From Diplonema papillatum (taxonomy: Eukaryota > Euglenozoa > Diplonemea > Diplonemida > Diplonemidae): DNA of 64,000 nucleotides. Location: NCBI GenBank assembly GCA_030068145.1, contig JAPJBO010000914.1, positions 1 through 64,000 on the forward strand, given 5' to 3'. The notes beneath the pieces were generated by a model, which ran no database searches, had not been told where the DNA came from, and worked only from the letters and a program-made list of their open reading frames with translations. The position numbers and the translations under genes were made by a program. How positions within the stretch are numbered: the first letter of the stretch is position 1; every line of letters begins with the position of its first letter. Shown piece after piece: positions 2,222-63,870 of the stretch.

Positions 2222-2274
2222 GTTAAGCATTGAGTTCTTTTAAGTACATGAACCACATGGATTAGCATGCACTG
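2222..2274 (-). repeat. 3' tail of non-LTR retroelement (with GTTAAGCA target duplication)
   Basis: About 45 bases starting TTGAGTTCTTTTAAGTACATG and ending CATGCACTG, preceded by the target sequence GTTAAGCA. On the minus strand this is the 3' end of the element whose body lies to the right. The AGT.CATG and CATG.ACT ends can pair into a hairpin. Confidence 0.8.
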
Positions 2275-2919
2275 TGTCGCCGCTTAAGGTTACTTTATGA
2301 CGTCGTCACCTGTCATTGCGTCGTCAAGGTCGAGTACTTGTGGCGCCAGGGGCGCTGGGCTTTCTTGCGGTTCTGGAGATTGCGTGGAGGGGCACAGGTG
2401 CGGACAATCTTGCACGTTTTTCACTCTCGAGGGCACTGGAGTGCTTGGGGACGTCGAACGTTTCTGGTAGCTGTTTGCTTTAAGGGCCATCCTCTTCCTT
2501 CGTTGCACCCCTGACTCGGGTGTGGTCGCCTTCGCCTTCTTCCGCTTGCGGCCGGCGATCGGGCTCTCCTTCGGGGTGCCGAGCACCCTCTTTTTCAACG
2601 CTGGTCGTTCGCCGGTGCCTGGCGTTGGTGGCGGCCTCTTGGCTGCCCGTCCGGTCGTCGCCGTCTTCTGCTTCGCTACGGCGGGCGGCGCCTGCGCCGC
2701 GCGCTTTCCCGCCGGCGTTTCACGTTGTACGCCCCCCTGGGTGGGTGAGAGGGGTCTCTTCTTTTTGCTGTGTCCGGGGGTTGCCGGGGCGTTAGGTTCG
2801 TTTGGTTGGTGGTGGCCGCGGCGGCAGCACGCTGCCGGTCTCCTTTGCGTCAACGTAGGGAGCCTCCTGCATTCTTGGCAGGTTCCTCTGCCATGCGTTA
2901 GCCCTTTCCTCTGCCAGCC
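2275..2919 (-). mobile_element. 5'-truncated non-LTR retroelement, copy 2 (subfamily a)
   Basis: Body of a heavily 5'-truncated element on the minus strand, joined directly to the 3' tail of the next copy (2920-2972). It retains only the last Cys/His module and the basic C-terminal tail of the ORF. The subfamily is marked by the ending LDLDDAMTGDDVIK and a 3' UTR with 'TAAGGTTACTTTATGACG', shared with copy 3 at 34.7-35.3 kb. Confidence 0.85.
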
Positions 2920-2928
2920 GTTAAGCAT
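2290..2928 (-). pseudogene. C-terminal fragment of non-LTR retroelement polyprotein (copy 2)
   Basis: Open frame of 212 codons encoding the C-terminus of the retroelement protein: THGRGTCQECRRLP, CCRRGHH, then a long Lys/Arg/Pro/Thr-rich tail ending DDVIK. The apparent start codon is the ATG in ATGCTTAAC at the junction with the neighbouring element, i.e. target-site sequence rather than an element start. RT and endonuclease are absent, so it cannot function in transposition. Confidence 0.8.
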
Positions 2929-2972
2929 TGAGTTCTTTTAAGTACACGAACCACATGGATTAGCATGCACTG
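2920..2972 (-). repeat. 3' tail of non-LTR retroelement
   Basis: Second copy of the 3' tail with GTTAAGCA, differing by one base (CACG for CATG in the left arm). It is the 3' end of copy 1 and abuts the 5' truncation point of copy 2. Confidence 0.8.
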
Positions 2973-3518
2973 CCTTGAAAGTCAGGTTGTCGGATGACGT
3001 CGTTACCTGCCATTGCGTCGTCAAGGTCGAGCATTTGTGGAGCTAGCGGGGTTTGGCTTTCTTGCGATTCCAGAGACTGAGTCGGCGAGTACGAGGGCGG
3101 GCACGTGTGCCCGTTTTTCACTTTTCTTCGAGGGCATTGGTGTGCCCGTGGTCCCCGGTCGTTTCTGAGAGCTGCTTGCCCTCGGGACCTTCTTCTTCCT
3201 TCGATGCACCCCTGAGTCGGGGGTGGTCGCCTTCGTCTTCTTTCGCTTGCGGCCGGCGATCGGGCCTTCCTTCGGGGTGCCTAGCACCCTCTTCTTCAGC
3301 GCTCGTCGTTCGCTGGTTCCTGGCGTTGGTGGCGGCCTCTTGGTCGCCCGTCCGGTCGTCGCCGTCTCCTTTTTCGTTGCCGCGGGCGGCGCTTGCGCCG
3401 CTCGCTTTCCTACTGGCGTTCCCCGTTGTACGCCCACCTGGGTGGGTGAGGAGCCTCTTCTTCTTGTTGCGTCCGGGGGTTGACGGGACGTTCGGTTCGT
3501 TGGACTGGTGGTGGCCGC
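2973..3518 (-). mobile_element. 5'-truncated non-LTR retroelement, copy 1 (subfamily b)
   Basis: Minus-strand fragment carrying only the basic C-terminal tail and the 3' UTR beginning 'CCTTGAAAGTCAGGTT' on the plus strand, as in copies 4 and 5. It sits head-to-tail with copy 2 inside target copy T1, bounded by the tails at 2920-2972 and 3519-3570. Confidence 0.85.
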
Positions 3519-3527
3519 GTTAAGCAT
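3021..3527 (-). pseudogene. C-terminal fragment of non-LTR retroelement polyprotein (copy 1)
   Basis: 168-codon open frame starting at the junction ATG and reading into GVQRGTPVGKRAAQAPPAA, the basic tail of copies 4 and 5. Relative to copy 4 the last part is frameshifted (SKKSEKRAHVP in place of PSKVKNGHTCPP), so the normal ending is lost. Confidence 0.75.
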
Positions 3528-3570
3528 TGAGTTATTTTAAGTACATGAACCACATGGATTAGCATGCACT
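3519..3570 (-). repeat. 3' tail of non-LTR retroelement, tail-only insertion
   Basis: GTTAAGCA followed by the tail, then GTTAAAGCA and the right half of target T1. No element body lies between this tail and the right target half, so this is an extreme 5' truncation. Confidence 0.8.
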
Positions 3571-3606
3571 GTTAAAGCAGCGGCTGCCGGCTTCTCCCGT
3601 GACACC

Positions 3607-6475: not shown

Positions 6476-6479
6476 CTGC

Positions 6480-7418: not shown

Positions 7419-7419
7419 A

Positions 7420-12298: not shown

Positions 12299-12550
12299 AA
12301 TTTGTTAAAGTGAAAGTGTTGTCGGATAAAAGGGAACAAAATTCGAAGTGGTGGGATATAAGGGAAATTCACCTATTTTTTAACCATGCAGGATAATCCC
12401 TGATTGTTTTTTCGGGGGTTCGCGCAACCCTTCTTTTCCGGAAGATAACGTTATCTTTTTTTTTCTCTGGCGCTCTTTTTCTCTTTATCTCTCTCTTTGG
12501 CTAGCAAAGCGACTATTGCGACCGACACCACGACCACACCCGTAATGAAT
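12299..12550. other. direct GGGATATAAGGGAA copies, then leader-like sequence
   Basis: Contains the direct motif copies to about 12366. Near 12518 it has TTGCGACCGACACCA, a string shared with putative retroelement leader regions at 23680, 36622 and 56986. No ORF. Confidence 0.45.
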
Positions 12551-12586
12551 GTGATCAAGGGCCCCCCACGTTCTACATGTTGAGCA

Positions 12587-12946
12587 GTGTGAACTTGAAA
12601 TGCAGGTACCACAGGGGTAAGCTTGCATTTGTCATAGGCTAGGGTTATTTGAATACGTCGTCCGAGGACGATCTCAAAGCGGACGAGGACGGTGATAATA
12701 GGCTGGTGATATCCAGCTCCATTCTTCGTTTGTTGCGCTTTCGCGCCGGCTGTCCTGCCGAAGCAGTCGCTCGAGGGGGCGATCCTGACATGGATGAGGA
12801 TGAAGTCGAGGTGGCAGGGCTGGTGATATCCAGCTCCATTCTCGAAATGTTGCGCTTTCGCGCCGCGTGCTTTTTTCCGGGTTTTCCCGCCGGGTCATTC
12901 GGTGGTGTCGGGAGTCGGGCTCTTTTCTGCCCCTTCCTTGGTGGTG
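12587..12946 (-). mobile_element. 5'-truncated retroelement fragment in target T5
   Basis: Flanked by 16-bp direct repeats TTCTACATGTTGAGCA. It contains a minus-strand ORF end (12645-12839) and a 3' UTR beginning, on the plus strand, GTGTGAACTTGAAATGCAGG. This tail type differs from the common TTGAGTTCTTT tail, suggesting a third element family using the same target. Confidence 0.65.
12645..12839 (-). pseudogene. C-terminal fragment of a related non-LTR polyprotein (ends DDVFK)
   Basis: 64-codon open frame with two copies of a MELDIT.S motif, each preceded by an Arg/Lys-rich stretch (RKRNKRRMELDIT), ending SSDDVFK. The ending matches DDVIK/DDVIR of copies 1-5 and of the fragment at 25302-25420. 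A duplicated ~23-bp DNA segment (12697 and 12820) explains the internal repeat. Confidence 0.6.
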
Positions 12947-12962
12947 TTCTACATGTTGAGCA

Positions 12963-13043
12963 TTGAGTTCTTTAAGGTGCAAGTGCCATCAAGGCAGGCG
13001 AGCACTGCTGTTGAGCATTGAGTTCTTTAATTAATGTTGAGCA
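12963..13043 (-). repeat. two nested tail-only insertions
   Basis: The first is TTGAGTTCTTTAAGGTGCAAG to GAGCACTGCTG (about 48 bp). The second is only TTGAGTTCTTTAATTAATG (about 19 bp). Each is bracketed by TTGAGCA. In the first, AGGTGC and GCACT plus TGCC and GGCA can pair, giving the same tail hairpin as the other families with different bases. Confidence 0.6.
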
Positions 13044-14300: not shown

Positions 14301-15286
14301 TTCCATTCGTTTTTGGTGTTTCCTTGTCCGTAGGCATAGAGCTGGCACAATGCCCCACCCGAGACGTCTCAAGACATTCTGGGTGCCTCAGAGCGACTGG
14401 TTGCACCGTTTCACAACTTGCAGCACCGCGGCCACACTCGATCCCCCGATCGGGTGCCTCAAGCAAGAGTACTCTCTCAAGAGAACACCACATCAGAGCA
14501 AGTGGTAGGTCAGGTGCTGGCAGCCCAGGCTGGCTGCACCGTGCCACGATGACGTTCGGGCCCGAATCGGGGCTAATCGCGGTGACAGTACTGTAGTAGC
14601 TGGCCAGATGCTAAGCCAGCCGAGAGGGGATGAAGTCCAAAACAGTACGTTTCCTGAGTTTGTGCCCAAAACAGTACTTTCGCCAAGTTTGTGCCCAAAA
14701 CAGTACCTTTTCCTGAGTTCGGGAGCTTGTCCAGCTATGCTGCGAGTCACAACGCGGGATGAAGTCCATCAGCCGAGCTGACTCAAGGTCAGGTTTGAAC
14801 AAGGCCGCCTGGCAGGGGTGCACAGGCCCGTGACAGGGGCTGTGCACGCGCACGTGGCAGGTGAAGGCAGTCCCTCAACATCCCTTGCGCTAGTGATATC
14901 AGTTACAAAGACGTGTTCTTACTTCTCCCTTTCTTCTAGGCAGTTCTCGTCAGACAATACGAAGAGCAGCAACTCCCGAACAAATCCAACCCGCCTCACA
15001 GATCGATCAAGTGAGAGAGATCTTCGAGCCCAGTTCCGACGCGCCGGCGAAAGCTGAAAAGAAGAGAGTGTGCAACCTTCCTCTAGGTGGTCTTCTTTCC
15101 GTACAGTTTTCCACGTCTGGAAGGTCCTTGCGTTCAGTTCGCGCTTCCTGTGGGCACAAAGACAGTTGATGACTTCAGGAAGGAATCAGCCATTCTTGCG
15201 TGATGTACTGAGGAGAGCTGCCACCTTGTTGTTAGCCGGTTCTGGGTTCGGTTCCGAGTTTGGAAGGTTCGGTTTTGGGTTCAATA
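14301..15286. other. no gene recognised; short CAAAACAGTAC repeats
   Basis: Three imperfect ~30-bp units containing GTGCCCAAAACAGTAC lie at 14640-14720. Open frames elsewhere are short and unfamiliar. Confidence 0.45.
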
Positions 15287-15677
15287 TTTGGCCCAATATT
15301 TGGACCCAATATTTTGGTCCCAAATTTTGGACCCAATTTTTGGACCCAAATTTTGGACCCAATATTTTGGTCCCAAATTTTGGACCCAATTTTTGGACCC
15401 AAATTTTGGACCCACATTTTGGACCCAAATTTTGGACCCAAATTTTGGACCCAAATTTTGGACCCAAATTTTTTACCCAAATTTTGGACCCAAATTTTGG
15501 ACCCAAATTTTGGACCCAATTTTTGGACCCAAATTTTGGACCCAAATTTTGGACCCAAATTTTGGACCCAATTTTTGGACCCAAATTTTGGACCCAATTT
15601 TTGGACCCAATTTTTGGACCCAAATTTCAGACCCAAATTATGGACCCAAATTTCAGACCCAAATTATGGACCCAATT
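15287..15677. repeat. 13-bp minisatellite (AAATTTTGGACCC)n
   Basis: About 390 bp of AAATTTTGGACCC units with the variants AATTTTTGGACCC, AATATTTTGGTCCC and AAATTATGGACCC. Open frames on both strands here (the WTQILDPNFGPK type) come from the unit length and composition and are not proteins. Confidence 0.95.
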
Positions 15678-15703
15678 TGAACCTGCCCTAAAAACCTGGT
15701 TCA

Positions 15704-25129: not shown

Positions 25130-25975
25130 GCCGGGAGAGGAGACGGCGGCGTTCTTCGACGGCGGCAGTCGGGGGAACGGGACCAACGGCGCGGACGCGG
25201 GAGCCTGGGGCGGTCTTCTACGACAGAGACGTCAAGCATTGAGTTCTTTAAAGTGCAAGTGCCGTCAAGGCAGGCGAGCACTGCTCACGGGCTAGTGTTA
25301 CTTTATGACGTCATCCGTCGGGAGAGTCAACGATGATGAGGATGAGGTCAAACTGGTCATTTCCGAGTCAAGTTCTGTTCCCGCTCGCTTTCGCGGTGCG
25401 GACTTTCCGGGTCGACGAGGGGGAAGTCCATTTCGTGATCGAGCGTAGAGTTGTTCGTGGCCTGCCGCGACCGCTTCGATCTTCGTGGCTTTCCTGTCGG
25501 GGATGCGAGCTTCGAGGACTCCTGCAGGGGTTGTTTCCGCCCTCTGCTGGGAGGCGCGTCTTTGGGCTCGCCGGCTGGCGTGCGAGGAGGGTCGTCAAGC
25601 AGTGGGAAGTTGAGAAGCCTATCGCCGGGAGAGCAACGAACAACGTGGCGGAATACGTCGGGTTCGTCAGCGTGTTGGCGAGATTGATGCGGGTCCCCGT
25701 GCCGCCGACGCCCCGCACCATCGTCGTCAAGGGCGACAGCGAACTGGTCATTGGGTAGATGAAGGGCACGAAGAGGTGCAACGAAACACGTACTACGACC
25801 AGGCGCAGAACCTGTTGGCGAAGCAGCACGACCGACGGACGACGATCGAGCCGGTGCACATTCCTCGCGAGCTCAACAAGGATGCGGACGAACTGTCCAA
25901 CAGCGCCATGGACACCGCACAGCGACAGGCGGCACAGGCCTACAGCGACTCGGCGACCGCGGAAGGGTGGGCTAT
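25130..25975 (+). pseudogene. RNase H domain of the same retroelement, interrupted by another retroelement
   Basis: ETAAFFDGGSRGNGTNGADA (first catalytic Asp region) ends at about 25238 and resumes at 25602 with QWEVEKPIAGRATNNVAEYV (catalytic Glu), VVKGDSELVIG (catalytic Asp) and HIPRELNKDADELSNSAMD (C-terminal Asp). The interrupting segment is 25239-25593, flanked by CGTCAAGCA on both sides. Removing it restores YDRDVKQWEVEK across the junction. A one-base frameshift lies near 25212, and a TAG at 25756-25758 falls where Gln would be expected after SELVIG, so the gene was already or is now dead. RNase H would degrade the RNA strand of the cDNA hybrid. Confidence 0.75.
25239..25593 (-). mobile_element. 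5'-truncated non-LTR element inserted in the RNase H gene
   Basis: Flanked by 9-bp direct repeats CGTCAAGCA (25230-25238, 25593-25601). The 3' tail begins TTGAGTTCTTTAAAGTGCAA and ends GCGAGCACTGCT, with arms AGTGC/GCACT and GTGCC/GGCA able to pair. The minus-strand ORF end reads PRKRAGTELDSEMTSLTS and finishes PTDDVIK at 25302, like the other families. The insertion point (AAGCA|) matches the point used in the structured repeats (TTAAGCA|). Confidence 0.85.
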
Positions 25976-26241
25976 GAGAACCGCGCTGAGCAGGCAAGAT
26001 TGTGCGCGTGGCAGCCGTCCACCCGGACCTCGAGATACGCGTCAACCACCTCACCAGCCTCGGGGGACCAGGTTTCTGGTATGAAGATGATGTTCAAGAG
26101 GAAGCTTTTATGTGCGCAAGCCAATTTGCATAGAATAAGTAGCGGGGAAGGTACCAGAAATATTTTTGCTAAGCAATGCTACCGACATACTGCAAATTGC
26201 CCAGCCAGCACGGAAGAATCCTGGTGCGGGTTCGTTGGTGC

Positions 26242-31587: not shown

Positions 31588-31631
31588 GGTGTCATTCAGA
31601 TGTAAATCCAAAGCCGCCCACGTCAAATTCT

Positions 31632-31684
31632 GTTAAGCATTGAGTTCTTTTAAGTACATGAACCACATGGATTAGCATGCACTG
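31632..31684 (-). repeat. 3' tail of non-LTR element copy 4
   Basis: GTTAAGCA plus the tail TTGAGTTCTTTTAAG ... CATGCACTG; 3' end of the long copy. Confidence 0.85.
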
Positions 31685-34618
31685 CCTTGAAAGTCAGGTT
31701 ATCGGATGACGTCGTCACCTGCCATTGCGTCGTCAAGGTCGAGCATTTGTGGAGCTAGCGGGGTTTGGCTTTCTTGCGATTCCAGAGACTGAGTCGGCGA
31801 GTACGAGGGCGGGCACGTGTGTCCGTTTTTCACTTTCGAGGGCGTTGGTGTGCCCGTGGTCCCCGGTCGTTTCTGAGAGCTGCTTGCCCTCGGTACCTTC
31901 TTCTTCCTTCGATGCACCCCTGAGTCGGGGGTGGTCGCCTTCGTCTTCTTCCGCTTGCGGCCGGCGATCGGGCCTTCCTTCGGGGTGCCTAGCACCCTTT
32001 TCTTCAGCGCTGGTCGTTCGCTGGTTCCTGGCGTTGGTGGCGGCCTTTTGGTCGCCCGTCCGGTCGTCGCCGTCTCCTTTTTCGTTGCCGCGGGCGGCGC
32101 TTGCGCCGCTCGCTTTCCAACTGGCGTTCCCCGTTGTACGCCCACCTGGGTGGGTGAGGAGGGCCTCTTCTTCTTGTTGCGTCCGGGGGTTGACGGGACG
32201 TTCGGTTCGTTGGACTGGTGGTGGCCGCGGCGGCAACATGCCGCCGGTCGCCTCTGCGTCAGCGTAGGGAGCCTCTTGCACTCTTGGCAGGTTCCTCTGC
32301 CATGCGTGCGGCAGGCATGATGCCCGCTGCGGCAACACGCCGCCGCCGTCTTGCACTCGCCGCACTTCGTCGTGCTGTGCTCTGCGCACACCGCGATCGG
32401 CTGCCCATCGTTCGCGTGGTGATGGTGCCGGCAGCACATCTCTACCGTGGGCACGTCCCTTCGGACGAGTGCTCTGCACGCCTCACACTTCCCTTTGTGA
32501 TGGGTCGCGCACGTGACGAGTGCCTTCTCTATATCGACACCCGGCATATGCACGGGGTCTGGGTGCAGTTGTGGTGGGGCAGGCAGGGCCCACCTCGCCG
32601 CTCTCCCGATCGTCCAGTCAGGGTACGCCGGGCACTGCGTCCCTACATCGCTTCCTTTCACTTGTTCCTCAAGTATCGTCCCCGTGTGTGCCTCGCGAAA
32701 GCGTGGCCTGGGCCGTACACCCGATATCCCCGAGATGCCCATGAACGACAGCGACGTCGTCGGGCACACCCTCTCCCCTCTCATGCAGCTTCCCAGCCCT
32801 TGCTGTGCCGCCAGCTTGTCCAACGCGCTCATCATGCAGCGCAGGACGTTTCCCCGTTCTCTCACCCCCTTCGGCGCATTCCCGTGCAGCGGCATGCTGA
32901 GGCCCGAGAAGAGTTCAAAGTCGATCGCAAGCTCTAGCATTGACGCCTGCCCGCTCTCGGTCCACTGCATGTCAGACAGCCACGCTACCAACGCATAAAA
33001 CGTCGGTAGTCCCCAGGTCTTGTTTCGCTCCCACGTCCATGCCGGGGCAATCCGCGCAAAGGGGTGGTCAAATTTCTCGGCAGGCATCGCATCCGCTCTC
33101 GACCAGGGGGTCGTGGGGTTCCTGGCTACCCAGCCACGTGCTTCGAGCCCTGCACGTTCCGCAAGGATTTCAGCCATCATCTCCTGGAGCCGCCTCGATA
33201 AGTGGGCGTTCCCCGGTACAACCACACCATGTTCCAGCGTGCATCGGGGCCACTCGGTTCGGTTGGCCGCCATCAGCCCGGCGTGTGCTTCCCGCCGGCG
33301 AATGTGTGAGTATGCGTCGCAGTCCCAGTAGATATGCTGTTCGTTCTCCGTCACGCCGCTCCCACAGTGCTTGCAGCTGGGCGCCTGCGGCTCAGCTCCA
33401 GCCTGCCTCATCCGCGACGTGAACTCCGCCGTGTTCACACCCCCCGCAATCGCAACTCGAATTAGCTTCGCCGTGTGCGCGGAACATTCCCTCGTCTTCC
33501 AGAACGCATTCGTGCGCTCCAAGTCGGCTCTTTCCAGCCCCTGATATCCTGGCCTTCTCGCCATCAGTCGGGCCCACGTCCTCGTTCTCAGGTCCGCCCT
33601 CACTTCGTGCCCCCTCTTCGAGGGCGACGAGGCCAGCGGGTCGAACACTGCACCATTCCGTCGTAGCGTGCGAGATAGGGGCCCAGGCTCCCATATGTGT
33701 CCACACTCCTCCATGCTCCTCATCGCCAGCCCGACTGGGCCGAGGGGTTGGTCCCCCTCGGCGTACCGCCCCCGGATACTCTCCATCAGAGGTAGCAGTC
33801 GCGGCAGCCTCTCGCACGCCGCGTAGAACGCCGTCGTCACCCGGTACGCTAAACACGTACCGGGGTCCGTCAGGTGGCCCTTCTCCTGGAAGTTCAGGAC
33901 CATTTCTCTCGCGCGCTTCGGGTTTGCTCCACCCCAGATCAGACCCATCACCGACGTCGTCAACCGCTTCATCGCCACCTTTGACACCGGCGCGAAGGAG
34001 CAGCCCGATAGCGCTGCCGGCAACACATTCGACTGCACAATACGGACCCGCTTTTCGTACCGGAATGGCGCGTGGCGGAGGCCCTCCGCTAGGGCCGCCG
34101 CCCTCTCTACCCTCTTAGAGTCGGACCTCTCCTTTCTGTTCTTCGCCGTTGAGACTAGGGCCCCCAGACACGTGACGGACTTGCTAAATCGCAGCAGCGC
34201 ATTTCCGCTTCGGAGTCTGAGCGTCGACTGGTGCCTCTGCCTCGTCGAGAATGCGATGGTCTTCTCGAGGTTTAGCTGCATTCCGGTGAGTGTGCAGAAC
34301 TCGTCAACAATGTCGACTCCCTTTTGCAGTGCGGCCTCCGACAGCCTGGACAGTAGTGTGGCATCATCCGCGTACGACTTAGGACTCACACCCTCAGCTT
34401 CTTTTTTGACCGCTTTCATCACTACCGACAGCAGGGCATTGATGAGTATGACGGACACAGGGCACCCTTGAAGGATACCGTTGGTCACACTAAACTCCCT
34501 GCCCACCCCTAGCGGCAACTTGAAGCGTCTTGCGAGCAGACTGTAAATCGCCCTCAGCGGCTTGAGAACCCGACCGTGCAGTCCTAAGTCCTCAGCCAGG
34601 CGTAGCACTACCTCTCTG
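31685..34618 (-). mobile_element. non-LTR retroelement, copy 4 (longest, 5'-truncated)
   Basis: About 2.9 kb on the minus strand, from a truncation in the RT domain to the 3' tail. It joins directly to the 3' tail of copy 3 (34619-34670). The intact frame and near-identity to copy 5 point to recent insertion. The 5' UTR, any endonuclease and the first RT motifs are missing. Confidence 0.9.
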
Positions 34619-34626
34619 TTAAGCAT
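31699..34626 (-). CDS. non-LTR retrotransposon reverse transcriptase, 5'-truncated
   Basis: 975 open codons. The first residues MLN come from target sequence at the junction. Order: RT motif B (GILQGCPVSVILINAL, near residue 60), motif C YADD (SYADDATLL, near 85), RT thumb, a CCHC motif (CKHCGSGVTENEQHIYWDC, near residue 430), then MLELAIDFELFSG. Three tandem Cys/His modules follow (CATHHKGKCEAC ... CCRHHHH; CAEHSTTKCGEC ... CCRSGHH; CRTHGRGTCQEC ... CCRRGHH), and a ~180-residue Lys/Arg/Pro/Thr-rich tail ending LDLDDAMAGDDVIR. RT motif A and the upstream domains are absent, so it cannot be autonomous. The three-fold module is unfamiliar to me in this position and may bind the RNA tail or target. 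Confidence 0.9.
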   Translation of the reverse strand: MLNREVVLRLAEDLGLHGRVLKPLRAIYSLLARRFKLPLGVGREFSVTNGILQGCPVSVILINALLSVVMKAVKKEAEGVSPKSYADDATLLSRLSEAALQKGVDIVDEFCTLTGMQLNLEKTIAFSTRQRHQSTLRLRSGNALLRFSKSVTCLGALVSTAKNRKERSDSKRVERAAALAEGLRHAPFRYEKRVRIVQSNVLPAALSGCSFAPVSKVAMKRLTTSVMGLIWGGANPKRAREMVLNFQEKGHLTDPGTCLAYRVTTAFYAACERLPRLLPLMESIRGRYAEGDQPLGPVGLAMRSMEECGHIWEPGPLSRTLRRNGAVFDPLASSPSKRGHEVRADLRTRTWARLMARRPGYQGLERADLERTNAFWKTRECSAHTAKLIRVAIAGGVNTAEFTSRMRQAGAEPQAPSCKHCGSGVTENEQHIYWDCDAYSHIRRREAHAGLMAANRTEWPRCTLEHGVVVPGNAHLSRRLQEMMAEILAERAGLEARGWVARNPTTPWSRADAMPAEKFDHPFARIAPAWTWERNKTWGLPTFYALVAWLSDMQWTESGQASMLELAIDFELFSGLSMPLHGNAPKGVRERGNVLRCMMSALDKLAAQQGLGSCMRGERVCPTTSLSFMGISGISGVRPRPRFREAHTGTILEEQVKGSDVGTQCPAYPDWTIGRAARWALPAPPQLHPDPVHMPGVDIEKALVTCATHHKGKCEACRALVRRDVPTVEMCCRHHHHANDGQPIAVCAEHSTTKCGECKTAAACCRSGHHACRTHGRGTCQECKRLPTLTQRRPAACCRRGHHQSNEPNVPSTPGRNKKKRPSSPTQVGVQRGTPVGKRAAQAPPAATKKETATTGRATKRPPPTPGTSERPALKKRVLGTPKEGPIAGRKRKKTKATTPDSGVHRRKKKVPRASSSQKRPGTTGTPTPSKVKNGHTCPPSYSPTQSLESQESQTPLAPQMLDLDDAMAGDDVIR

Positions 34627-34670
34627 TGAGTTCTTTTAAGTACATGAACCACACGGATTAACATGCACTG
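34619..34670 (-). repeat. 3' tail of non-LTR element copy 3
   Basis: Tail with GTTAAGCA; carries CACACGG and TTAACATG variants, showing independent drift from the other tails. Confidence 0.8.
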
Positions 34671-35337
34671 TGTCGCCGCTTAAGGTTACTCTATGACGTC
34701 GTCACCTGTCATTGCGTCGTCAAGGTCGAGTACTTGTGGCGCCAGGGGCGCTGGGCTTTCTTGCGGTTCTGGAGATTGCGTGGAGGGGCACAGGTGCGGA
34801 CAGGCTTGCACGTTTTTCACTCTCGAGTGCATTGGAGTGCTTGGGGACGTCGAACGTTTCTGGTAGCTGTTTGCTTTAAGGGCCTTCCTCTTTCTTCGTT
34901 GCACCCCTGACTCGGGTGTGGTCGCCTTCGCCTTCTTCCGCTTGCGGCCGGCGATCGGGCTCTCCTTCGGGGTGCCGAGCACCCTCTTTTTCAACGCTGG
35001 TCGTTCGCCGGTCCCTGGCGTTGGTGGCGGCCTCTTGGCTGCCCGTCCGGTCGTCGCCGTCCTCTGCTTCGCTACGGCGGGCGGCGCCTGCGCCGCGCGC
35101 TTTCCCGCCGGCGTTGTGGGTGAGAGGGGTCTCTTCTTCTTTTTGCTGTGTCCGGGGGTTGCCGGGGCGTTCGGTTCGTTGGGTTGGTGGTGGCCGCGGC
35201 GGCAGCACGCTGCCGATCTCCTCTGCGTCAACGTAGGGAGCCTCCTGCATTCTTGGCAGGTTCCTCTGCCATGCGTGCGGCAGGCATGATGCCCGCTGCG
35301 GCAGCACGCCGCCGCCGTCTTGCACCCGCCGCACTTC
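34671..35337 (-). mobile_element. 5'-truncated non-LTR element, copy 3 (subfamily a)
   Basis: Minus-strand fragment lying between the tails at 34619-34670 and 35338-35389. Same subfamily as copy 2 (3' UTR CGCCGCTTAAGGTTACT). It lacks a ~22-bp stretch in the basic tail that copy 2 has. Confidence 0.85.
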
Positions 35338-35384
35338 GTTAAGCATTGAGTTCTTTTAAGTACATGAACCACATGGATTAGCAT
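34686..35384 (-). pseudogene. C-terminal retroelement fragment fused in frame to the upstream tail
   Basis: 232 open codons. The first 16 (MLIHVVHVLKRTQCLT) are translated from the neighbouring 3' tail and target sequence, then KCGGCKTAAACCRSGHH, CRTHGRGTCQEC, CCRRGHH and the basic tail to DDVIE. A read-through ORF created by head-to-tail insertion, unlikely to be functional. Confidence 0.8.
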
Positions 35385-35389
35385 GCACT
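35338..35389 (-). repeat. tail-only insertion next to the right half of target T2
   Basis: GTTAAGCA-tail-GTTAAGCA with no element body on its right: a maximally truncated first insertion into T2. Confidence 0.8.
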
Positions 35390-35425
35390 GTTAAGCAGCG
35401 GCTGCCAAGACTTGCTGTAGATGAA

Positions 35426-54198: not shown

Positions 54199-54242
54199 GG
54201 TGTCATTCAGATGTAAATCTAAAGCCGCCCACGTCAAACTTT

Positions 54243-54295
54243 GTTAAGCATTGAGTTCTTTTAAGTACATGAACCACATGGATTAGCATGCACTG
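54243..54295 (-). repeat. 3' tail of non-LTR element copy 5
   Basis: GTTAAGCA plus the standard tail, identical to that at 31632-31684. Confidence 0.85.
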
Positions 54296-55781
54296 CCTTG
54301 AAAGTCAGGTTATCGGATGACGTCGTCACCTGCCATTGCGTCGTCAAGGTCGAGCATTTGCGGAGCTAGCGGGGTTTGGCTTTCTTGCGATTCCAGAGAC
54401 TGAGTCGGCGAGTACGAGGGCGGGCACGTGTGTCCGTTTTTCACTTTCGAGGGCATTGGTGTGCCCGTGGTCCCCGGTCGTTTCTGAGAGCTGCTTGCCC
54501 TCGGTACCTTCTTCTTCCTTCGTTGCACCCCTGAGTCGGGGGTGGTCGCCTTCGTCTTCTTCCGCTTGCGGCCGGCGATCAGGCCTTCCTTCGGGGTGCC
54601 GAGCACCCTCTTCTTCAGCGCTGGTCGTTCGCTGGTTCCTGGCGTTGGTGGCGGCCTCTTGGTCGCCCGTGCGGTCGTCGCCGTCTCCTTTTTAGTTGCC
54701 GCGAGCGGCGCTCGCGCCGCTCGCTTTCCTACTGGCGTTTCCCGCTGTACACCCACCTGGGTGGGTGAGGAGGGCCTCTTCTTCTTGTTGCGTCCGGGGG
54801 TTGACTCGACGTTCGGCTTGTTGGACTGGTGGTGGCCGCGGCTGCAACATGCCGCCGGTCGCCTCTGCGTCAGCGTAGGGAGCCTTTTGCACTCTTGGCA
54901 GGTTCCTCTGCCATGCGTGCGGCAGGCATGATGCCCGCTGCGGCAACACGCCGCCGCCGTCTTGCACTCGCCGCACTTCGTCGTGCTGTGCTCTGTGCAC
55001 ACCGCGATCGGCTGCCCATCGTTCGCGTGGTGATGGTGCCGGCAGCACATCTCTACCGTGGGAACGTCCCTTCGGACGAGTGCTCTGCACGCCTCACACT
55101 TCCCTTTGTGATGGGTCGCGCACGTGACGAGTGCCTTCTCTATACCGACACCCGGCATATGCACGGGGTCTGGGTGCAGTTGTGGTGGGGCAGGCAGGGC
55201 CCACCTCGCCGCTCTCCCGATCGTCCAGTCAGGGTACGTCGGGCACTGCGTCCCTACATCGCTTCCTTTCACTTGTTCCTCAAGTATCGTCCCCGTGTGT
55301 GCCTCGCGAAAGCGTGGCCTGGGCCGTATACCCGATATCCCCGTGATGCCCATGAACGACAGCGACGTCGTCGGGCACACCCTCTCTCCTCTCATGCAGC
55401 TTCCCAGCCCTTGCTGTGCCGCCAGCTTGTCCAACGCGCTCATCATGCAGCGCAGGACGTTTCCCCGTTCTCTCACCCCCTTCGGCGCATTCCCGTGCAG
55501 CGGCATGCTGAGGCCCGAGAAGAGCTCAAAGTCGATCGCAAGCTCCAGCATTGACGCCTGCCCGTTCTCGGTCCATTGCATGTCCGACAGCCACGCTACC
55601 AACGCATAAAACGTCGGTAGTCCCCAGGTCTTGTTCCGCTCCCACGTCCATGCCGGGGCAATCCGCGCGAAGGGGTGGTCAAATTTCTCGGCAGGCATCG
55701 CATTCGCTCTCGACCAGGGGGTCGTGGGGTTCCTGGCCACCCAGGCACGTGCTTCGAGCCCAGCCCGTTCCGCAAGGACTT
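54296..55781 (-). mobile_element. 5'-truncated non-LTR retroelement, copy 5 (subfamily b)
   Basis: About 1.5 kb on the minus strand, near-identical to the 3' half of copy 4. Truncated in the post-RT region (VLAERAGLEARAWVARN at the junction) and bordered on the right by ACTTGTTAAGCA, which is repeated beyond the tail-only insertion at 55836-55849. Confidence 0.9.
54310..55740 (-). pseudogene. C-terminal half of non-LTR retroelement polyprotein (copy 5)
   Basis: 476 open codons from a GTG, and open to the truncation point at 55781. It contains MLELAIDFELFSG, the three Cys/His modules (CCRHHHH, CCRSGHH, CCSRGHH; the third has Ser for Arg) and the basic tail ending DDAMAGDDVIR. No RT catalytic motifs. 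Frame fully intact, consistent with very recent insertion. Confidence 0.85.
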
Positions 55782-55849
55782 GTTAAGCATTGAGTTCTTT
55801 TAAGTACATGAACCACATGGATTAGCACGCACTACACACTTGTTAAGCA
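55782..55849 (-). repeat. tail-only insertion with 12-bp target duplication
   Basis: ACTTGTTAAGCA lies on both sides (55778-55789 and 55838-55849) of a tail that ends CACGCACTACAC. It is the clearest measure of target-duplication length at a structured repeat. Confidence 0.85.
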
Positions 55850-55876
55850 GCGGCTGCCAAAACTTGCCGTGACACC

Positions 55877-60160: not shown

Positions 60161-61101
60161 ACGCCGTGAACCGCTTCCCTCCTCCGGTCTCGGGGCGATG
60201 CGGACGTCCCCTCCTCTCGGAGCCCCCTCTCTCACCCGGCGAACGGAACCGTCTTGTCCGGACTGCGAACGCGTACGTGGCGGATGCACTGGCGCTGTCC
60301 ACACGACGCGGGATCCACTCCGTGTACCGGCGCTTTCTGGAGTTCCGACGTCACTGGGATGCAGAGGCAGATTCGCAGCTCGATGTCCCGACGGCGCTGG
60401 TCTTGTTCGTGACCCGTTTGCTCTCTCGTGGAGACATCTGCGCGGCCTCGGCAGTACAGTACGTCGTCAACGTACAGTCGGCCGAGAAGCGGTTGGGGCG
60501 GCCTGTCGACAGCCAGCTCGTCAGGGACTTTGTCAGGTCTCTGAAACGGGCCGGCGCGATGAAGCCGTCGAAGCAGGCTGTACCGGTGACGAAGGACGAG
60601 CTGCATCTTGCCGTTGCCCTGGAAGCGGACCCCAGGGTGCGTGTTGCGCTGGCTTTGGCCTGGCAGGGTGCCGCCCGCGTGGACGACGTGCTGACGAGAA
60701 AGGCAGAGCACGTCACCGAAAGTGCTGGTTTCTGGGCGGTGAACTGGGTGGGCTCGAAGTCGGATCCTTTCCGTCTCGGCCAGGTGACAGGAGTGATTCT
60801 TCCTCCAGCCCAGGACCAGGAGCTCCGGACGCTGTTGTCGCAAACACCTCCGGGACGCCTCCTGTTCCCGGACCTCCCTTTCCGACGAGTTGTGACCGCG
60901 CTGAAGCGCGCGAACATTTCACTCTCCGGCCATTCTCTCCGGCGGGGCGCCCTGTTTCATCTCCTGAGAAGCGGGATCGACCTGAAGGTGATCCAAAGTG
61001 TGTCGCGCCATACGACGCTGAGTGCGCTAATGCGATACCTTCCGGAGGCCGAGGTTCCGCTCGTCCGGAACACCGCGAGGGCGTCGGCGTCCCTTCTCTA
61101 A
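59929..61101 (+). CDS. tyrosine recombinase of the YR element (ORF2)
   Basis: 390 open codons; the recombinase part starts near NRLVRTANAYVADAL, and no good Met lies just before it, so expression by frameshift from gag or reinitiation is likely. The N-terminal core-binding region (STRRGIHSVYRRFLEF RRHW) is followed by the catalytic domain. Catalytic residues are Arg I in WQGAARVDDVL, the beta-hairpin Lys in VGSKSDPFRLGQ, the HxxR box in SGHSLRRGAL, and the final His and Tyr in SRHTTLSALMRYLPE. All are present, so it should be active. It integrates the circular cDNA without an integrase-type target duplication. Its place between gag and RT, not downstream of RT, is unlike DIRS-1 and Ngaro and like kinetoplastid VIPER. 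Confidence 0.92.
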   Translation: MVSCRQPPAPASARGRVSSVSTERLPGSTESRGAARLEAAQEAQPEAPHPTLGRSSSPRRSPGPSADERNQEQGQAVDAVNRFPPPVSGRCGRPLLSEPPLSPGERNRLVRTANAYVADALALSTRRGIHSVYRRFLEFRRHWDAEADSQLDVPTALVLFVTRLLSRGDICAASAVQYVVNVQSAEKRLGRPVDSQLVRDFVRSLKRAGAMKPSKQAVPVTKDELHLAVALEADPRVRVALALAWQGAARVDDVLTRKAEHVTESAGFWAVNWVGSKSDPFRLGQVTGVILPPAQDQELRTLLSQTPPGRLLFPDLPFRRVVTALKRANISLSGHSLRRGALFHLLRSGIDLKVIQSVSRHTTLSALMRYLPEAEVPLVRNTARASASLL

Positions 61102-62900
61102 CCCTTCGTCTTGAACCCCCTTTCCCGTTTAAGCCGCCCAAGAAGTTCCCCGACCCGTTGGCTACGTTCTACCAGGGGCCGGGAGAGGGTCCCGAAGAAG
61201 ACTTGCCCCCCTCGATGTTCACTCCCTTTGTTGGTGTTGCTTACGGGGGTGAACTCCTCATCAACAACCTCACGGCCGTCCCTACGCAACGCAGAATCGG
61301 CGAGGCTCTCGCGCCCATCTCGTCATCGTTCATGAACCTTGAGAGGTTGACGGCGCTGGACAGCCGGGGGCTGCTGCGCGGTGTGCTGGACGTGGTCCGT
61401 TCGTGGGAATCCTTCCGGTCCGCCCTGCTCCCGGGGGCGGAGGAAGCGCTGATGGCATCGGCGATCACACGAACGACGTCGAGGCGCATGCTACGCCACT
61501 TCCCGGATCTGGTGAGATATGGCGTGGCAGAGGTCGCATCGGGCGGGTTGAGGGTCGTCCTCCCCGCCTTCACTGTCGACAAGAAGAGCGGTGGGCAGAG
61601 GTTCGTGTGTGACGGTCGCAAGCTCAACGCGATCATGGCGCGCCCGCCTCCAATGCTGCTCCCTTCGGTTCACGAGGTGATCGACCGCGTGTTGGCCTCA
61701 TCGGTGGTGTTTCTCGCGGACGCCCGGAGCTATTTTTATCAGTTCCGGCTCGACGCAGACATCCGACCGTATTTTGGCATGCACCTGGCAGGGCCGCGGG
61801 GCCGTTTTGTACAGGCACAACTCGCCGCAATGTGCATGGGGTGGAGCTGGGCTCCGGCGATAGCTCAGAGGGCCTCCCGGGTGCTCCTACCGGAGGCTGA
61901 CGGTCTACCCTGGGTGGACAACTTTGTCGTCGTGGGAAGCTCGTTGCGGGAGGCAACTTCGCGGTTCGACTCTTTCGTGCAACGCTGCAGGGACGTTAAC
62001 TGCGAGCTCAACGAAGACGACGAGCAGTTTGGAGCCCCCCTCAGGGAGTTCGACCTCCTAGGACTCCATTTCGAACTCTCCCGGTTCGACCGCCCCGCCC
62101 GGTATAGGATGGCAGAATCGTGGGTGTCGAAATTGCTTGGTTCCCCCGAGCTCGCCATGGTTCGGCTTGGAGGAGTATCCCCTCGCCAGTTCTACCGGGT
62201 GTTCGGATCTTTGGTCTGGTTCGCGTACACGACACGTTTCCGACTGGCCTACGCCCGATGTTCCTTGTCGTTCCTGCAGAGGCTGGCCTCGACTCTGGCA
62301 TCGGATCCAGCTGCCTGGGATGTGACGAAGGCTGTGCCGCCCTCGACGGTGCGTGAGGTCGAGCATCTTGTTTCCCTTGTGGAAGAGAATCGCTGGGTCA
62401 GTCGGTCAGAATCCTTTCCCTCATCGGTCACTCTCTGGACAGACGCCTCGTCCAAATGGTGGGCTGCGGTCCTCGAAGGGGAATCTGAGCGCGTGTCACA
62501 GGGCCCCTTTGTGGAGTTGAGTCACACCCACATCTTTTTGAAGGAACTCTTTGCAGTCCTTCGGGGCATCGAGATGACCGCCAGTTTCCATTCGAACGTC
62601 CGCGTAAGGCTCATGGTAGACAACCTCCCGGCGGTCCATTGTCTCAACAAGGGACACTCAAAGAATTTTGCGGCCAATGTCCTTTTGACGAGGATATTCG
62701 ACGCCGCACGGGCTGCCGGCCTTGTCATCAGTGCCGAGTGGGTTCCGACCGATGCGCAAAGGGCCGACCCCTACACCCGCGGGGTGCTGGCCCTGGTGAG
62801 CGACACGCCAGAGAGTGTCTGGTCGCCTCATGCAGAGGATCTTGCTCCGCCCTCAGATTTGGTGTGCCACTGCGTGGTCCCTGGGGGTCCTGATGCGTAA
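59937..62900 (+). CDS. reverse transcriptase-RNase H of the YR element (ORF3)
   Basis: The frame is open for 987 codons, but everything before about 61090 overlaps ORF2 and is compositionally noise; the protein proper starts near PPFPFKPPKKFPDPLATFYQ. RT motifs: FTVDKKSGGQRFVCDGRKLN, ADARSYFYQFRLD (motif A), MCMGWSWAPAIAQR (motif B) and LPWVDNFVVVG (motif C, V-D-N instead of Y/F-x-D-D). RNase H: LWTDASSKWWAAVLEG, KELFAVLRGIEM, LMVDNLPAVHCLNKG and EWVPTDAQRADPYTRG, so all four acidic positions are filled. The stop overlaps the start of B1. The same V-D-N variant is in the relic at 641-1900. Confidence 0.9.
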   Translation: MQAASSTGISTRPGFLRFYGASSRLYRKPRSSPPRSRPGSAARGPAPDTRAKLFPPTLPRPLSGRTQPGARPSSRRREPLPSSGLGAMRTSPPLGAPSLTRRTEPSCPDCERVRGGCTGAVHTTRDPLRVPALSGVPTSLGCRGRFAARCPDGAGLVRDPFALSWRHLRGLGSTVRRQRTVGREAVGAACRQPARQGLCQVSETGRRDEAVEAGCTGDEGRAASCRCPGSGPQGACCAGFGLAGCRPRGRRADEKGRARHRKCWFLGGELGGLEVGSFPSRPGDRSDSSSSPGPGAPDAVVANTSGTPPVPGPPFPTSCDRAEAREHFTLRPFSPAGRPVSSPEKRDRPEGDPKCVAPYDAECANAIPSGGRGSARPEHREGVGVPSLTLRLEPPFPFKPPKKFPDPLATFYQGPGEGPEEDLPPSMFTPFVGVAYGGELLINNLTAVPTQRRIGEALAPISSSFMNLERLTALDSRGLLRGVLDVVRSWESFRSALLPGAEEALMASAITRTTSRRMLRHFPDLVRYGVAEVASGGLRVVLPAFTVDKKSGGQRFVCDGRKLNAIMARPPPMLLPSVHEVIDRVLASSVVFLADARSYFYQFRLDADIRPYFGMHLAGPRGRFVQAQLAAMCMGWSWAPAIAQRASRVLLPEADGLPWVDNFVVVGSSLREATSRFDSFVQRCRDVNCELNEDDEQFGAPLREFDLLGLHFELSRFDRPARYRMAESWVSKLLGSPELAMVRLGGVSPRQFYRVFGSLVWFAYTTRFRLAYARCSLSFLQRLASTLASDPAAWDVTKAVPPSTVREVEHLVSLVEENRWVSRSESFPSSVTLWTDASSKWWAAVLEGESERVSQGPFVELSHTHIFLKELFAVLRGIEMTASFHSNVRVRLMVDNLPAVHCLNKGHSKNFAANVLLTRIFDAARAAGLVISAEWVPTDAQRADPYTRGVLALVSDTPESVWSPHAEDLAPPSDLVCHCVVPGGPDA

Positions 62901-63210
62901 GCGTTCAACAAAAAAGACCCACTTTGTAGTTGTATTGTTTTCTCCCCCTCTAGCCTCCTTCGAAATGAGCACAAGGCAGTCCCTCGAGTATTTTTGTATA
63001 AGCACCTGCTTTGTAGGAAATGCTTGAGGAGACTGCCAGTTGCGATAGATCAAAGGAGGTAAATGTGCTGTAGCCCACACGAAACACAGGTAACCCTGGG
63101 TTTAGTGGCGGGCGTAAGCGTTCAACAAAAAAGACCCACTTTGTAGTTGTATTGTTTTCTCCCCCTCTAGCCTCCTTCGAAATGAGCACAAGGCAGTCCC
63201 TCGAGTATTT
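62901..63210 (+). repeat. B1-A2-B2 terminal repeats of the YR element
   Basis: B1 (62901-62990) runs GCGTTCAACAAAAAAGACCC to CAGTCCCTCGAGTA. A2 (62991-63125) repeats A1. B2 (63126-63210) repeats B1 to CTCGAGTATTT. A circular intermediate joined through these repeats would allow a full template to be restored. Confidence 0.92.
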
Positions 63211-63733
63211 TCTGAAGCCCTGCTTGGTGACCACTTAGAGAGGCTTAGCGTTTCCCCCCCTCACAAGTGAAAATAGGGGGAGGGGGGGGGGGGGGTCAGC
63301 CGGCTGATGGATGGATGGATGGTTCTTAACAAGATGCCTGGGGGGGTTTCCCCACGACAACTAGTGTCAGACTAGCCTACCCGAAGGCAGTTGATTTCTT
63401 CAGGCAAGGTTTCTCTACCGGCGGAAGTTGTTTGGGTTAGCGTTCTTTGTTTTTTTTCTCTTCTCCTTCCGTTGGTATTGTTAGTCATTCACTCTCCCTT
63501 TTCCCTACAGCTCTGATCCCTTCTCTTTCCACTTCTTCCTCTTCCGTTACCCCCCACACAAGACGCAGTGTTGATTTACTCGATATTATCCCTTGTTACG
63601 ACGATATATCTCAAAAGAAATGTGAAAACGGGTTTTTGCCTGGAGGCTTTTCGTGTTATTTTGCAAATGCTTTGAGCTATCTTCGTGTCTGTGCTTTCAG
63701 TCGTCTTCTTAACCATGGTTAAAGTGCGCAAAT
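63211..63733. other. G-runs and a possible dispersed repeat; no gene
   Basis: A G-rich run near 63270-63295, a short ATGG tandem at 63308-63322, and TCTACCGGCGGAAG... sequence related to 58035-58060. Open frames unassigned. Confidence 0.4.
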
Positions 63734-63870
63734 GGTGTCAGCCGAAGCTGGTAAAGCTTCAGCGCCGCCCACGTTATGCTTGTTTAGCATTGAGTTCTTT
63801 TAAGTACATGAACCACATGGATTAACATGCACTGCTGTTTAGCAGCGGCTGCCAAACATCCCGTGACACC
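63734..63870. other. structured ~80-nt repeat (target copy T4) with a tail-only insertion
   Basis: GGTGTCA, a 9-bp hairpin (GCCGAAGCT/AAGCTTCAGC), GCCGCCCACG, the second stem (ATG.TTG/CAA.CAT) around TTTAGCAGCGGCTGC, CCCG, TGACACC. The insertion (63790-63836) is bracketed by TGTTTAGCA. The variant T in TTTAGCA appears in both flanks, as expected for a target duplication. Confidence 0.65.
63782..63844 (-). repeat. tail-only insertion of the non-LTR element in T4
   Basis: TGTTTAGCA followed by TTGAGTTCTTTTAAG ... ACATGCACTGC and TGTTTAGCA again. Only about 47 bases of element are present. Confidence 0.8.

Follow-up and report, generated by a model that had tools for sequence, protein, structure and literature searches.

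Our analysis indicates that a family of diplonemid APE-type non-LTR retrotransposons very probably inserts, by the cycle proposed below, at one specific site within an RNA motif of Penelope-like elements (PLEs) and of small tandem derivatives. Judged on a sample of junctions, site-specific insertion is supported across the genome. The starting point was the window, that is, the whole stretch of 64,000 nucleotides of Diplonema papillatum DNA that was analysed (Table 1), for which it had been predicted that copies start directly after GTT(A/T)AGCA and form nested series in one orientation. The first statement holds in the window and genome-wide, with few deviant sites. The element junction AGCA-TTGAG occurs on the + strand at 2230, 2928, 3527, 12963, 13018, 25239, 31640, 34626, 35346, 54251, 55790 and 63790, and AGCA-G(C/G)GG(C/T)TGCC closes five arrays on the same strand (3580, 13044, 35398, 55850 and 63845); neither is found on the - strand of the window. 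GTT(A/T/G)AGCA itself is present 17 times on the + strand and four times on the - strand, the expectation for a single strand being 3.48 on average and 7 at most (100 Markov-1 resamples).

Head-to-tail series nested within target duplications are seen, as originally described, at 2222-3579 and 31632-35397 (three copies each). The element plus tail at 54243-55849 was likewise recovered as two copies, including the 12-bp duplication at 55778-55849, and the junction at 63782-63844 proved to be that of a single tail-only copy. Three insertions were also confirmed at 12579-13043, where the first carries a different tail and where the site is GTTGAGCA instead of GTT(A/T)AGCA. Deviant sites are (i) the mutated right-hand site of the first array and (ii) the sequence preceding the copy at 25239, around which no core was seen. 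A label of RNase-H-like coding sequence, given by eye to the DNA left of 25239, was dropped (no Pfam match at E up to 1).

Table 1. Target-core halves and inserted copies in the window
Position	Strand	Feature	Basis
2180..2229	+	Target core left half, PLE subfamily B, ending in site GTTAAGCA (2222-2229)	sequence; GGTGTCA at 2180
2230..2919	-	Non-LTR copy, family B, 5'-truncated; 3' tail 2230-2273, then body	
2928..3518	-	Nested copy no. 2, family A, 5'-truncated; site repeat 2920-2927	
3527..3571	-	Tail-only copy; site repeat 3519-3526	sequence
3572..3606	+	Mutated site TTAAAGCA (3572-3579) and target core right half GCGGCTGCC...CGTGACACC	
12520..12586	+	G-type core left half (CCCCC/GGGG class), ending GTTGAGCA	subfamily by comparison
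12587..12954	-	Insertion with different 3' tail GTGTGAACTTGAAATGC..., probably other non-LTR lineage, same site	
12963..13009	-	Tail-only copy with tail of type D (TTGAGTTCTTTAAGGTGCAAG...), preceded by site repeat 12955-12962	
13018..13035	-	Truncated tail TTGAGTTCTTTAATTA... flanked by site repeats (13010-13017, 13036-13043); 13044 onward: core right half GGGGTTGCC	
25239..26093	-	Non-LTR 3' part, tail type D, after CGTCAAGCA; outside recognisable core; right end approximate	
31588..31639	+	Target core left half, subfamily A; site GTTAAGCA 31632-31639	
31640..34617	-	5'-truncated non-LTR copy of family A; its open frame (31699-34635) matches ORF2 residues 1017-1992	
34626..35337	-	Family B copy, nested; site repeat 34618-34625	
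35346..35390	-	Tail-only copy flanked by site repeats (35338-35345, and 35390-35397 with one base shared); 35398 onward: core right half	
54199..54250	+	Core left half, subfamily A; site GTTAAGCA 54243-54250	
54251..55777	-	Family A non-LTR copy, 5'-truncated	
55778..55849	-	Tail-only copy (55790 onward) with 12-bp repeat ACTTGTTAAGCA on both flanks; 55850 onward: core right half, with CGTGACACC at 55868	
63734..63789	+	Core left half, subfamily E; site GTTTAGCA 63782-63789	
63790..63870	-	Tail-only copy (63790-63833), followed by the site repeat up to 63844 and the core right half up to 63870	

Genome-wide, a 26-base core of the tail has 2,014 exact matches, and GTTWAGCA joined to 25 tail bases has 2,017, slightly more because this pattern draws on another part of the tail; 558 tail-only copies run straight into a core. 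The reversed-pattern control gave 0 in all three cases. We read the junctions of 62 of the 2,014 exact element 3' ends, taken as an ordered sample with a pattern that requires the first 31 tail bases. Exact GTTWAGCA lies upstream in 53 of the 62 and a near match in the other nine, yielding the site logo G61 T59 T60 A/T59 A61 G62 C62 A61. The insertion touches the conserved core at 54 junctions, 52 by a mechanical test and two, with damaged cores, by eye (L074 and L109). At the other eight the left flank is an earlier copy (non-LTR interior in 8/8), i.e., the insertions are nested; these are body-bearing copies whose left flanks were read and for which we infer the core through nesting alone. 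Insertion mostly at unrelated sites, which had been named as the outcome that would refute site specificity, is thus not what the sample shows. Among 34 tail-only copies, 32 target duplications could be measured, 20 of them being 9-11 bp long and six only 0-4 bp, the latter partly because the site is mutated or because the boundary was misplaced by the mechanical reading (as in L065). The 3' junction is thus fixed in 62/62 cases and accompanied by variable 5' truncation and target duplication, the hallmark of non-LTR insertion.

If GTTWAGCA were part of the element's own end, the site specificity would be an artefact, and all 62 sampled tails do have AGCA, or a sequence differing from it by one base, at the junction. 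This explanation has next to no probability: it is refuted by 766 unoccupied cores of a first type in which the same sequence is intact (control 0), the variable base of the site follows the core subfamily of the host repeat (GTTAAGCA in A, B and D, GTTTAGCA in C and E, in 100 listed places), and flanking duplications (e.g., 24 bp in L083 and 26 bp in the C828 copy) extend past the 8-mer into core-specific letters. A second type of unoccupied core, characterized by a compensatory base change, has 1,298 members against 16 in the control; all 100 listed places show the C/G compensatory pair. It is also quite improbable that insertions are rare and that copies have spread passively through copying or segmental duplication of PLE cores. 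Some loci do share identical arrangements (L071 and L072 have the same left flank), but at least five core subfamilies were hit in the sample, where bodies, truncation points and duplication lengths differ, and a PLE would have to carry the insertion inside its own motif.

The origin of the shortest copies and of the most regular arrays is a related matter. Tail-only copies of about 44 nt make up 34 of the 62 sampled 3' ends (the other 28 are body-bearing), and one might regard them as an independent, ultra-short SINE-like element with transcription of its own, which in SINEs usually relies on RNA polymerase III, rather than as aborted long copies. Read by eye, 30 of the 34 stop at one and the same tail end, and no body-bearing copy among the 28 visibly ends within the next ~60 nt, which together with the 558 tail-only copies that run straight into a core favours such an element. 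Yet long elements end in the identical tail, shorter tail fragments exist as well (window position 13018, L120; those below 31 nt were excluded from the sample), and a protein bound at, or RNA cleavage at, the 5' end of the tail would be expected to produce the same length peak, so that we consider the SINE-like alternative rather unlikely. For uniform arrays with a period of 53 bp, such as L044 with ~15 nearly identical units and L046 with more than 20, it is fairly probable that most units arose by tandem duplication, through slippage or unequal exchange between repeats, once one or two insertions were in place, but unlike units and bodies, as at 2222-3579, at 31632-35397 and in L045, L047 and L048, require separate insertions. 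Tandem duplication bears on the arrays alone and does not conflict with site-specific insertion as the main reading. The original prediction is supported, with the qualification that some of the uniform 53-bp arrays were probably made by tandem duplication rather than by serial insertion.

The element whose site-specific insertion we propose is an APE-type non-LTR retrotransposon of ~8 kb comprising ORF1 followed by ORF2, the latter with an AlkB-like domain, a 2A-like peptide, an APE endonuclease and a reverse transcriptase (RT). The RT is of LINE type (RVT_1 1.1e-18; phmmer 1.9e-19 to LINE-1 ORF2 and 1.8e-13 to R2), the endonuclease matches Exo_endo_phos at 1.4e-08 (residues 342-555), and RNase H has no Pfam match in ORF2 at E up to 0.05. 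Protein identity of 98-100% in all 47 scored copies, of 16,486 first-look candidates, suggests that the element was active recently. At its 3' end lies a conserved 44-nt tail consisting of a predicted hairpin plus 13 nt, devoid of poly(A), with unremarkable folding (z -1.52 in element sense). No AlkB-domain non-LTR retrotransposon was evident in the titles and abstract openings of matching papers in the openly licensed literature.

Full-length copies open with the spliced leader, for which 65 + 5 exact copies were found at the element 5' end (control 0); the leader or its remnants are present at 20/20 fetched 5' junctions. The mobilised RNA was therefore trans-spliced, and the leader at the 5' end, read at the level of DNA, directly identifies the mobile intermediate as a trans-spliced mRNA. 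The 5' region is represented by 73 copies, of which 64 are among the 65 with an exact leader; eight of the remaining nine were fetched and have a mutated or shortened leader in every case, while the ninth lies at a contig end. A promoter-bearing, unspliced source copy was not found among the 73. We found no report in the openly licensed literature either of a trans-spliced retrotransposon with a spliced leader in diplonemids or of diplonemid retrotransposon insertion sites.

The target is a conserved, covarying and apparently pseudoknotted RNA motif located in PLE repeats and in 0.6-kb tandem repeats. In line with the original prediction, which recognised none of the known targets here, it is not a recognisable host gene, and Rfam covariance models gave no match to the core at E up to 5 for five loci and at E up to 1 for four PLE-type loci. 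On this Rfam result a known RNA gene was rejected as target, as was a hammerhead in the PLE repeats, for which regular-expression matches were unconvincing and cmscan returned none at E up to 1; the passages on permuted hammerheads in PMC10085705 likewise contain nothing matching the present core. Pseudoknot-free folding of the joined empty site at 63.8 kb gave z -0.48 on one strand (not unusual) and -2.05 on the other (weak), and the covariation measure ‘further pair types’ did not exceed shuffles (287/500 reach the observed value). Overall, the core looks like a conserved RNA that has not been described before. We tentatively entertain, as a reading that is more doubtful than probable, that it constitutes a new functional RNA class (a pseudoknot plus side hairpin) needed for PLE replication, with a second retroelement homing on its DNA. 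The 44-nt tail-only copies, mobilised by that retroelement's enzyme as well, would then rank with the shortest mobile retroelements known, and the core might serve as a self-cleaving ribozyme or as an RT-binding pseudoknot of the telomerase-RNA type.

An N-terminal GIY-YIG domain marks a separate clade of PLEs. One of the PLEs carrying the target has 1,128-bp direct repeats (99.9% identical, period 5,850) with a core in each and an internal ORF encoding GIY-YIG and UCH, and a second one combines GIY-YIG with OTU. GIY-YIG was detected at 7.9e-06 and 5.2e-05, and GIY-YIG and RT occur in one ORF, with RVT_1 being weak and matched in one of the two proteins (0.043, below Pfam's cut-off); PLE-type RT motifs were recognised in P0001. 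A PDB profile search from two PLE proteins yielded no sequence at E up to 1. The tandem organization, with periods of 5,850 and 5,974 and repeats of 1,128, 436 and 247 bp, agrees with the partial tandem repeats (pLTRs) that PLEs form according to PMC11167929. The present elements thus resemble PLEs in their single ORF with GIY-YIG and RT and in their pLTRs, but GIY-YIG lies upstream of RT, a UCH or OTU domain is added at the C-terminus, and the pLTR contains the pseudoknot-like motif, where Rfam hammerhead models have no match at E up to 1.

For the cycle itself, we propose that the element would be transcribed inside directional transcription units and then trans-spliced, so that its RNA starts with the spliced leader; the leader is seen in the copies, and the transcription route is the conjectural part. 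As the junction geometry suggests, the ORF2 protein may nick the PLE-antisense strand directly behind GTTWAGCA, or behind GTTGAGCA in the second target class, immediately before GCGG/GGGG, and the nicked 3' end could then serve as primer for reverse transcription of an RNA that has the 44-nt tail at its 3' end. The geometry of the observed junctions is in this respect consistent with target-primed reverse transcription. Staggered second-strand cleavage, usually by about 9-11 bp and by up to 26 bp in the copies read, would duplicate the site, which would stay usable such that later copies align head to tail, an order of insertion suggested by the observed structure. Tail-only remnants of 44 nt might result from abortive or short-template events.

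Many site-specific non-LTR elements occupy host multicopy genes, and Tx1L inserts in the transposon Tx1D. Kojima and Jurka (PMC4640811) list transposons among known non-LTR targets and Tx1 and R1 as APE clades with target specificity. Elements of these clades share with the present family APE, RT and an exact site in a multicopy target, whereas the present family targets a structured PLE RNA motif, its ORF2 has the AlkB-like domain and 2A-like peptide, and the spliced leader opens full-length copies. Trypanosomatid INGI elements (L1Tc, which carries a 2A peptide, and relatives) are likewise APE- and RT-encoding non-LTR elements of Euglenozoa. They are comparable also in having short non-autonomous relatives (PMC12278014). 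According to that paper, INGI elements are characterized by RNase H, a 5' Pr77 promoter/ribozyme and a poly(A) tail, whereas the present element starts with the spliced leader, ends in the 44-nt tail and has no Pfam RNase H, and hence does not fit the definition of INGI. In the same paper, CRE/SLACS elements are comparable in using an exact site in a multicopy euglenozoan target, but they combine RLE with spliced-leader genes as target, whereas we find APE and the PLE core, and the spliced leader belongs here to the 5' end of the element rather than to its target; membership of the CRE clade is not supported. Hence, while site-specific non-LTR elements as such are known, the target and the architecture look new.

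Taken together, one retroelement appears to exploit a conserved structured part of another, across five or more host subfamilies among the sampled junctions, and the PLE motif offers hundreds to thousands of sites that each insertion would re-create. Site-specific retroelement enzymes attract interest, moreover, as DNA-writing tools. The family provides a parasite-of-a-parasite system whose sequences make target specificity, RNA recognition and tandem growth accessible to study.

The original prediction that non-LTR retroelements insert repeatedly at one exact site of a structured repeat, here called the core, is real and its interpretation sound; the inserting element is an APE-type non-LTR retrotransposon of ~8 kb. 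Across the 271 Mb searched (2,910 contigs, with the window on contig C914), the 26-base core of the element's conserved 3' tail, TTCTTTTAAGTACATGAACCACATGG, occurs 2,014 times and its reversed control not at all; GTTWAGCA joined exactly to the tail is seen at 2,017 genomic positions and GTTGAGCATTGAGTNCT at 1,224 (control 0 in both cases). From the start of the contig order, 62 places were read (stretch L020 and 60 fetched stretches, of which one contains two places); they yield the site logo G61 T59 T60 A/T59 A61 G62 C62 A61, the eight bases preceding the tail being GTTWAGCA in 53/62 and near matches in 9/62. By a mechanical core test (left half with ≤2 mismatches, right half with ≤3; left-half chance rate 75/2,000), 52 of these 62 junctions touch the core. 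Among the ten that fail, two tail-only copies (stretches L074 and L109) have, by eye, a damaged right core half, and the other eight have the interior of another non-LTR copy as left flank (blastn), which is the originally proposed nesting of new elements in older ones. Unoccupied targets, CCGCCCACG-N(4-24)-GTTWAGCAGCGG, occur 766 times genome-wide (control 0). For the second core class, the pattern CCHCCCACG...AGCAGDGG, which changes both members of one predicted pair, gave 1,298 matches (control 16); the C-G compensatory combination is present in all 100 listed of these places, many of which are copies of a few subfamilies. Since empty targets exist, the insertion site is a property of the target and not of the element's own end.

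The targets are carried by elements that we assign to the Penelope-like elements (PLEs). Cores lie in direct repeats with either of two periods and in a tandem unit (see table). Two internal ORFs, 1,513 and 1,547 aa long (34% identity over 925 columns), both contain GIY-YIG (7.9e-06 and 5.2e-05, respectively), with a weak RVT_1 match in the RT region of the first (0.043) and none in that of the second. The C-terminal domain is UCH (3e-15) or OTU (4.2e-08), a deubiquitinase-like end of the Penelope-like proteins that differs between the two families (L039, L041). An N-terminal GIY-YIG is the mark of a separate PLE clade, and the core-bearing elements presumably also possess RT motifs of PLE type. 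A profile search of the PDB with the PLE proteins found nothing, and the assignment therefore rests on architecture, repeat layout and the motifs that we recognise. Canonical PLEs are described, in the relevant passages of PMC11167929, as encoding GIY-YIG and RT and forming partial tandems with pLTRs; the core-bearing elements are alike in combining GIY-YIG with an RT region and in their repeat layout. The PLE surroundings of the core were examined at three loci with long ORFs or repeats and at two tandem loci; for the other cores they are assumed by subfamily.

In PLE sense, the core is apparently laid out as P1 - CGG - P2 - GGCA - P3 - TGCTWAAC - P2' - ACGTGG - P3' - hairpin - P1', where P2 and P3 would interleave to form what is apparently a pseudoknot enclosed by P1; the insertion site GTTWAGCA is the loop joining P2 and P3 of this predicted structure. 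Over six subfamily sequences, 86.2% of cells are paired under this structure (70.5% for P2 by itself), and the structure's covariation score is 0.337 versus 0.177 in shuffles (0/500 as high), slid versions never scoring above 0.167; further pair types in the core are not above shuffles, 287/500 of which reach the observed number. In eleven hand-aligned subfamily sequences, both helices have higher arm scores within than across subfamilies (P2 6.28 versus 4.00, P1 6.24 versus 4.81). Rfam has no match at the core, and pseudoknot-free folding of one empty site gave z-scores of -0.48 (unremarkable) and -2.05 (weak) on the two strands.

A full-length copy of the inserting element on contig C828 (abutting stretches L118 and L057) spans about 8.06 kb from leader to tail and comprises ORF1, a 651-codon frame with a cysteine-rich end, then a stop and ORF2, a 1,992-codon frame. 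ORF2 contains, in this order, 2OG-FeII_Oxy_2 (AlkB-like; 6.7e-12, phmmer to ALKBH8 1.2e-05), the 2A-like motif GDIEQNPGPG, Exo_endo_phos (1.4e-08) and RVT_1 (1.1e-18). The AlkB-like 2-oxoglutarate oxygenase domain is located toward the N-terminal side of ORF2 (residues 159-255, L057). A first look gave 16,486 candidate copies, of which 47 were scored; protein identity is 98-100% in all 47, and 19 keep an open frame of 1,992 aa. Such near-identity suggests recent activity of the element. The pertinent sections of the Diplonema papillatum genome report (PMC10161547) give a genome of about 280 Mb and gene models that are LINE-1, SLACS, R2 and jockey-like, and mention there neither a target site nor Penelope-like elements. 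Target-specific non-LTR elements are known, with transposons among their targets, from the corresponding part of PMC4640811, and the present element shares this target specificity. In the literature searched, mostly superficially, we met no account of a covarying pseudoknot-like PLE motif as insertion target, none of an ORF combining AlkB, 2A, APE and RT, and none of a diplonemid element that starts with a spliced leader.

Full-length elements open with ACCAACGATTTAAAAGCTACAGTTTCTGTACTTTATTG, and AACCAACGATTTAAAAGCTACAGTTTCTGTACTTTATTG is listed in a review table (PMC3795323) as a 39-nt euglenozoan spliced leader. The leader is directly followed by GCTGCTCACGC in 65 occurrences and by GACAAACACCC in 5 (control 0 for each); the GACAAACACCC form starts 42 nt further in, behind CCAG, as would be expected for an alternative acceptor. 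Regardless of the leader, the 5' region occurs 73 times, 9 of them without the exact leader pattern, and all 8 fetched of these 9 retain a mutated or shortened leader (stretch L139 keeps its last 11 bases only). Leader sequence is likewise present in 20/20 5' junctions fetched as one set, and in L118, L119 and L120. In two stretches (L138, L140), two extra bases (TG) separate leader and element. The leader at the 5' junctions shows that the mobilised RNA was a trans-spliced mRNA. The 73 5' regions (64 with the exact leader, 8 of the 9 others fetched) yielded no source copy in unspliced form; the leader itself offers no 3' AG for re-splicing.

The claimed arrays are present in the window: 12 element 3' ends have TTGAG directly after AGCA on the + strand, and none on the - strand, which is the reading direction of the elements; AGCA followed by G(C/G)GG(C/T)TGCC closes five arrays. 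At 12.5-13.0 kb the array occupies a core of the second class, with GTTGAGCA as site; the first element inserted there (12587-12954) carries a different 3' tail, GTGTGAACTTGAAATGC... / GTGTGAACTTGAAATGCAGGTACCAC..., after the same AGCA site. The GTGTGAACTTGAAATGC tail is also found behind the site repeat in stretch L081, the sole match among 153 loci, and hence the target site is probably shared by two non-LTR lineages. The copy at 25239, preceded by CGTCAAGCA and with no core seen there, is the single window junction that looks off-target; Pfam has no match for the frame to its left.

The 62 sampled tails divide into 34 tail-only copies and 28 with body (20, 7 and 1 of families A, B and C), fragments <31 nt being outside the sample by design, though such fragments exist (window 13018; stretch L120). 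By reading, the 5' end of the tail, ...GCACT or a form differing at one point, is present in 30 of the 34 tail-only copies and absent from 4, and none of the 28 body-bearing copies visibly ends within the next ~60 nt; such a one-length peak is still not predicted by random 5' truncation. When nine representatives of the 33 tail variants read were folded, six gave a minimum-energy structure in which AGUGC pairs with G(U/C)ACU further downstream, and three folded in other ways; the stability of a single tail is nothing unusual (z -1.52), so that this hairpin stays a prediction. Target duplications measure 0-24 bp in 32 of the 34 tail-only copies (9-11 bp in 20/32), and 26 bp in the C828 copy. 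Repeated head-to-tail insertion, as originally proposed, holds for mixed arrays, which need separate insertions, whereas in the uniform 53-bp arrays (L044, L046) insertion was probably followed by growth through tandem duplication. In L109, the shortened tail runs into GTCACGGGATG, an inverted copy of the adjoining core, as though template switching had completed the 5' junction.

Features of the core-bearing loci and of the window
Feature	Location	Strand	Description
Direct repeats	L039		1,128 bp, 99.9% identical; period 5,850
Direct repeats	L042		436 bp; period 5,850
Direct repeats	L041		247 bp; period 5,974
Tandem unit with core	L040, L043		624 bp
Astacin-like frame	window 26242-28872	-	cellular-type Pfam match
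UCH frame	window 36731-38467	-	cellular-type Pfam match
RT frame, 992 aa	window 59922-62900	+	weak RVT_1 match
Tandem array	window 42038-43225		period ~96/105 bp
Tandem array	window 21821-22632		period ~29 bp
Tandem array	window 15221-15715		period ~13 bp

The RT frame of the window, which has no tblastn match from the non-LTR ORFs or the two PLE proteins, is another, unrelated retroelement, and the three window tandem arrays apparently have no relation to the insertions. The astacin-like and UCH frames lie, in this one window, on the sense strand of the elements. Among the first 100 tails listed (C1-C18), neighbours on the same contig share a strand in 76 of 82 pairs, whereas 10,000 strand shuffles average 40.6 and never exceed 57; the elements thus follow long directional domains. 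Along these contigs the insertion strand switches rarely and is otherwise unchanged over very long distances. Long directionally transcribed gene clusters are reported for Diplonema in the section concerned of PMC10161547, and the orientation is as expected if PLEs, and hence the elements inserted into them, are kept in the transcription direction of long gene clusters.
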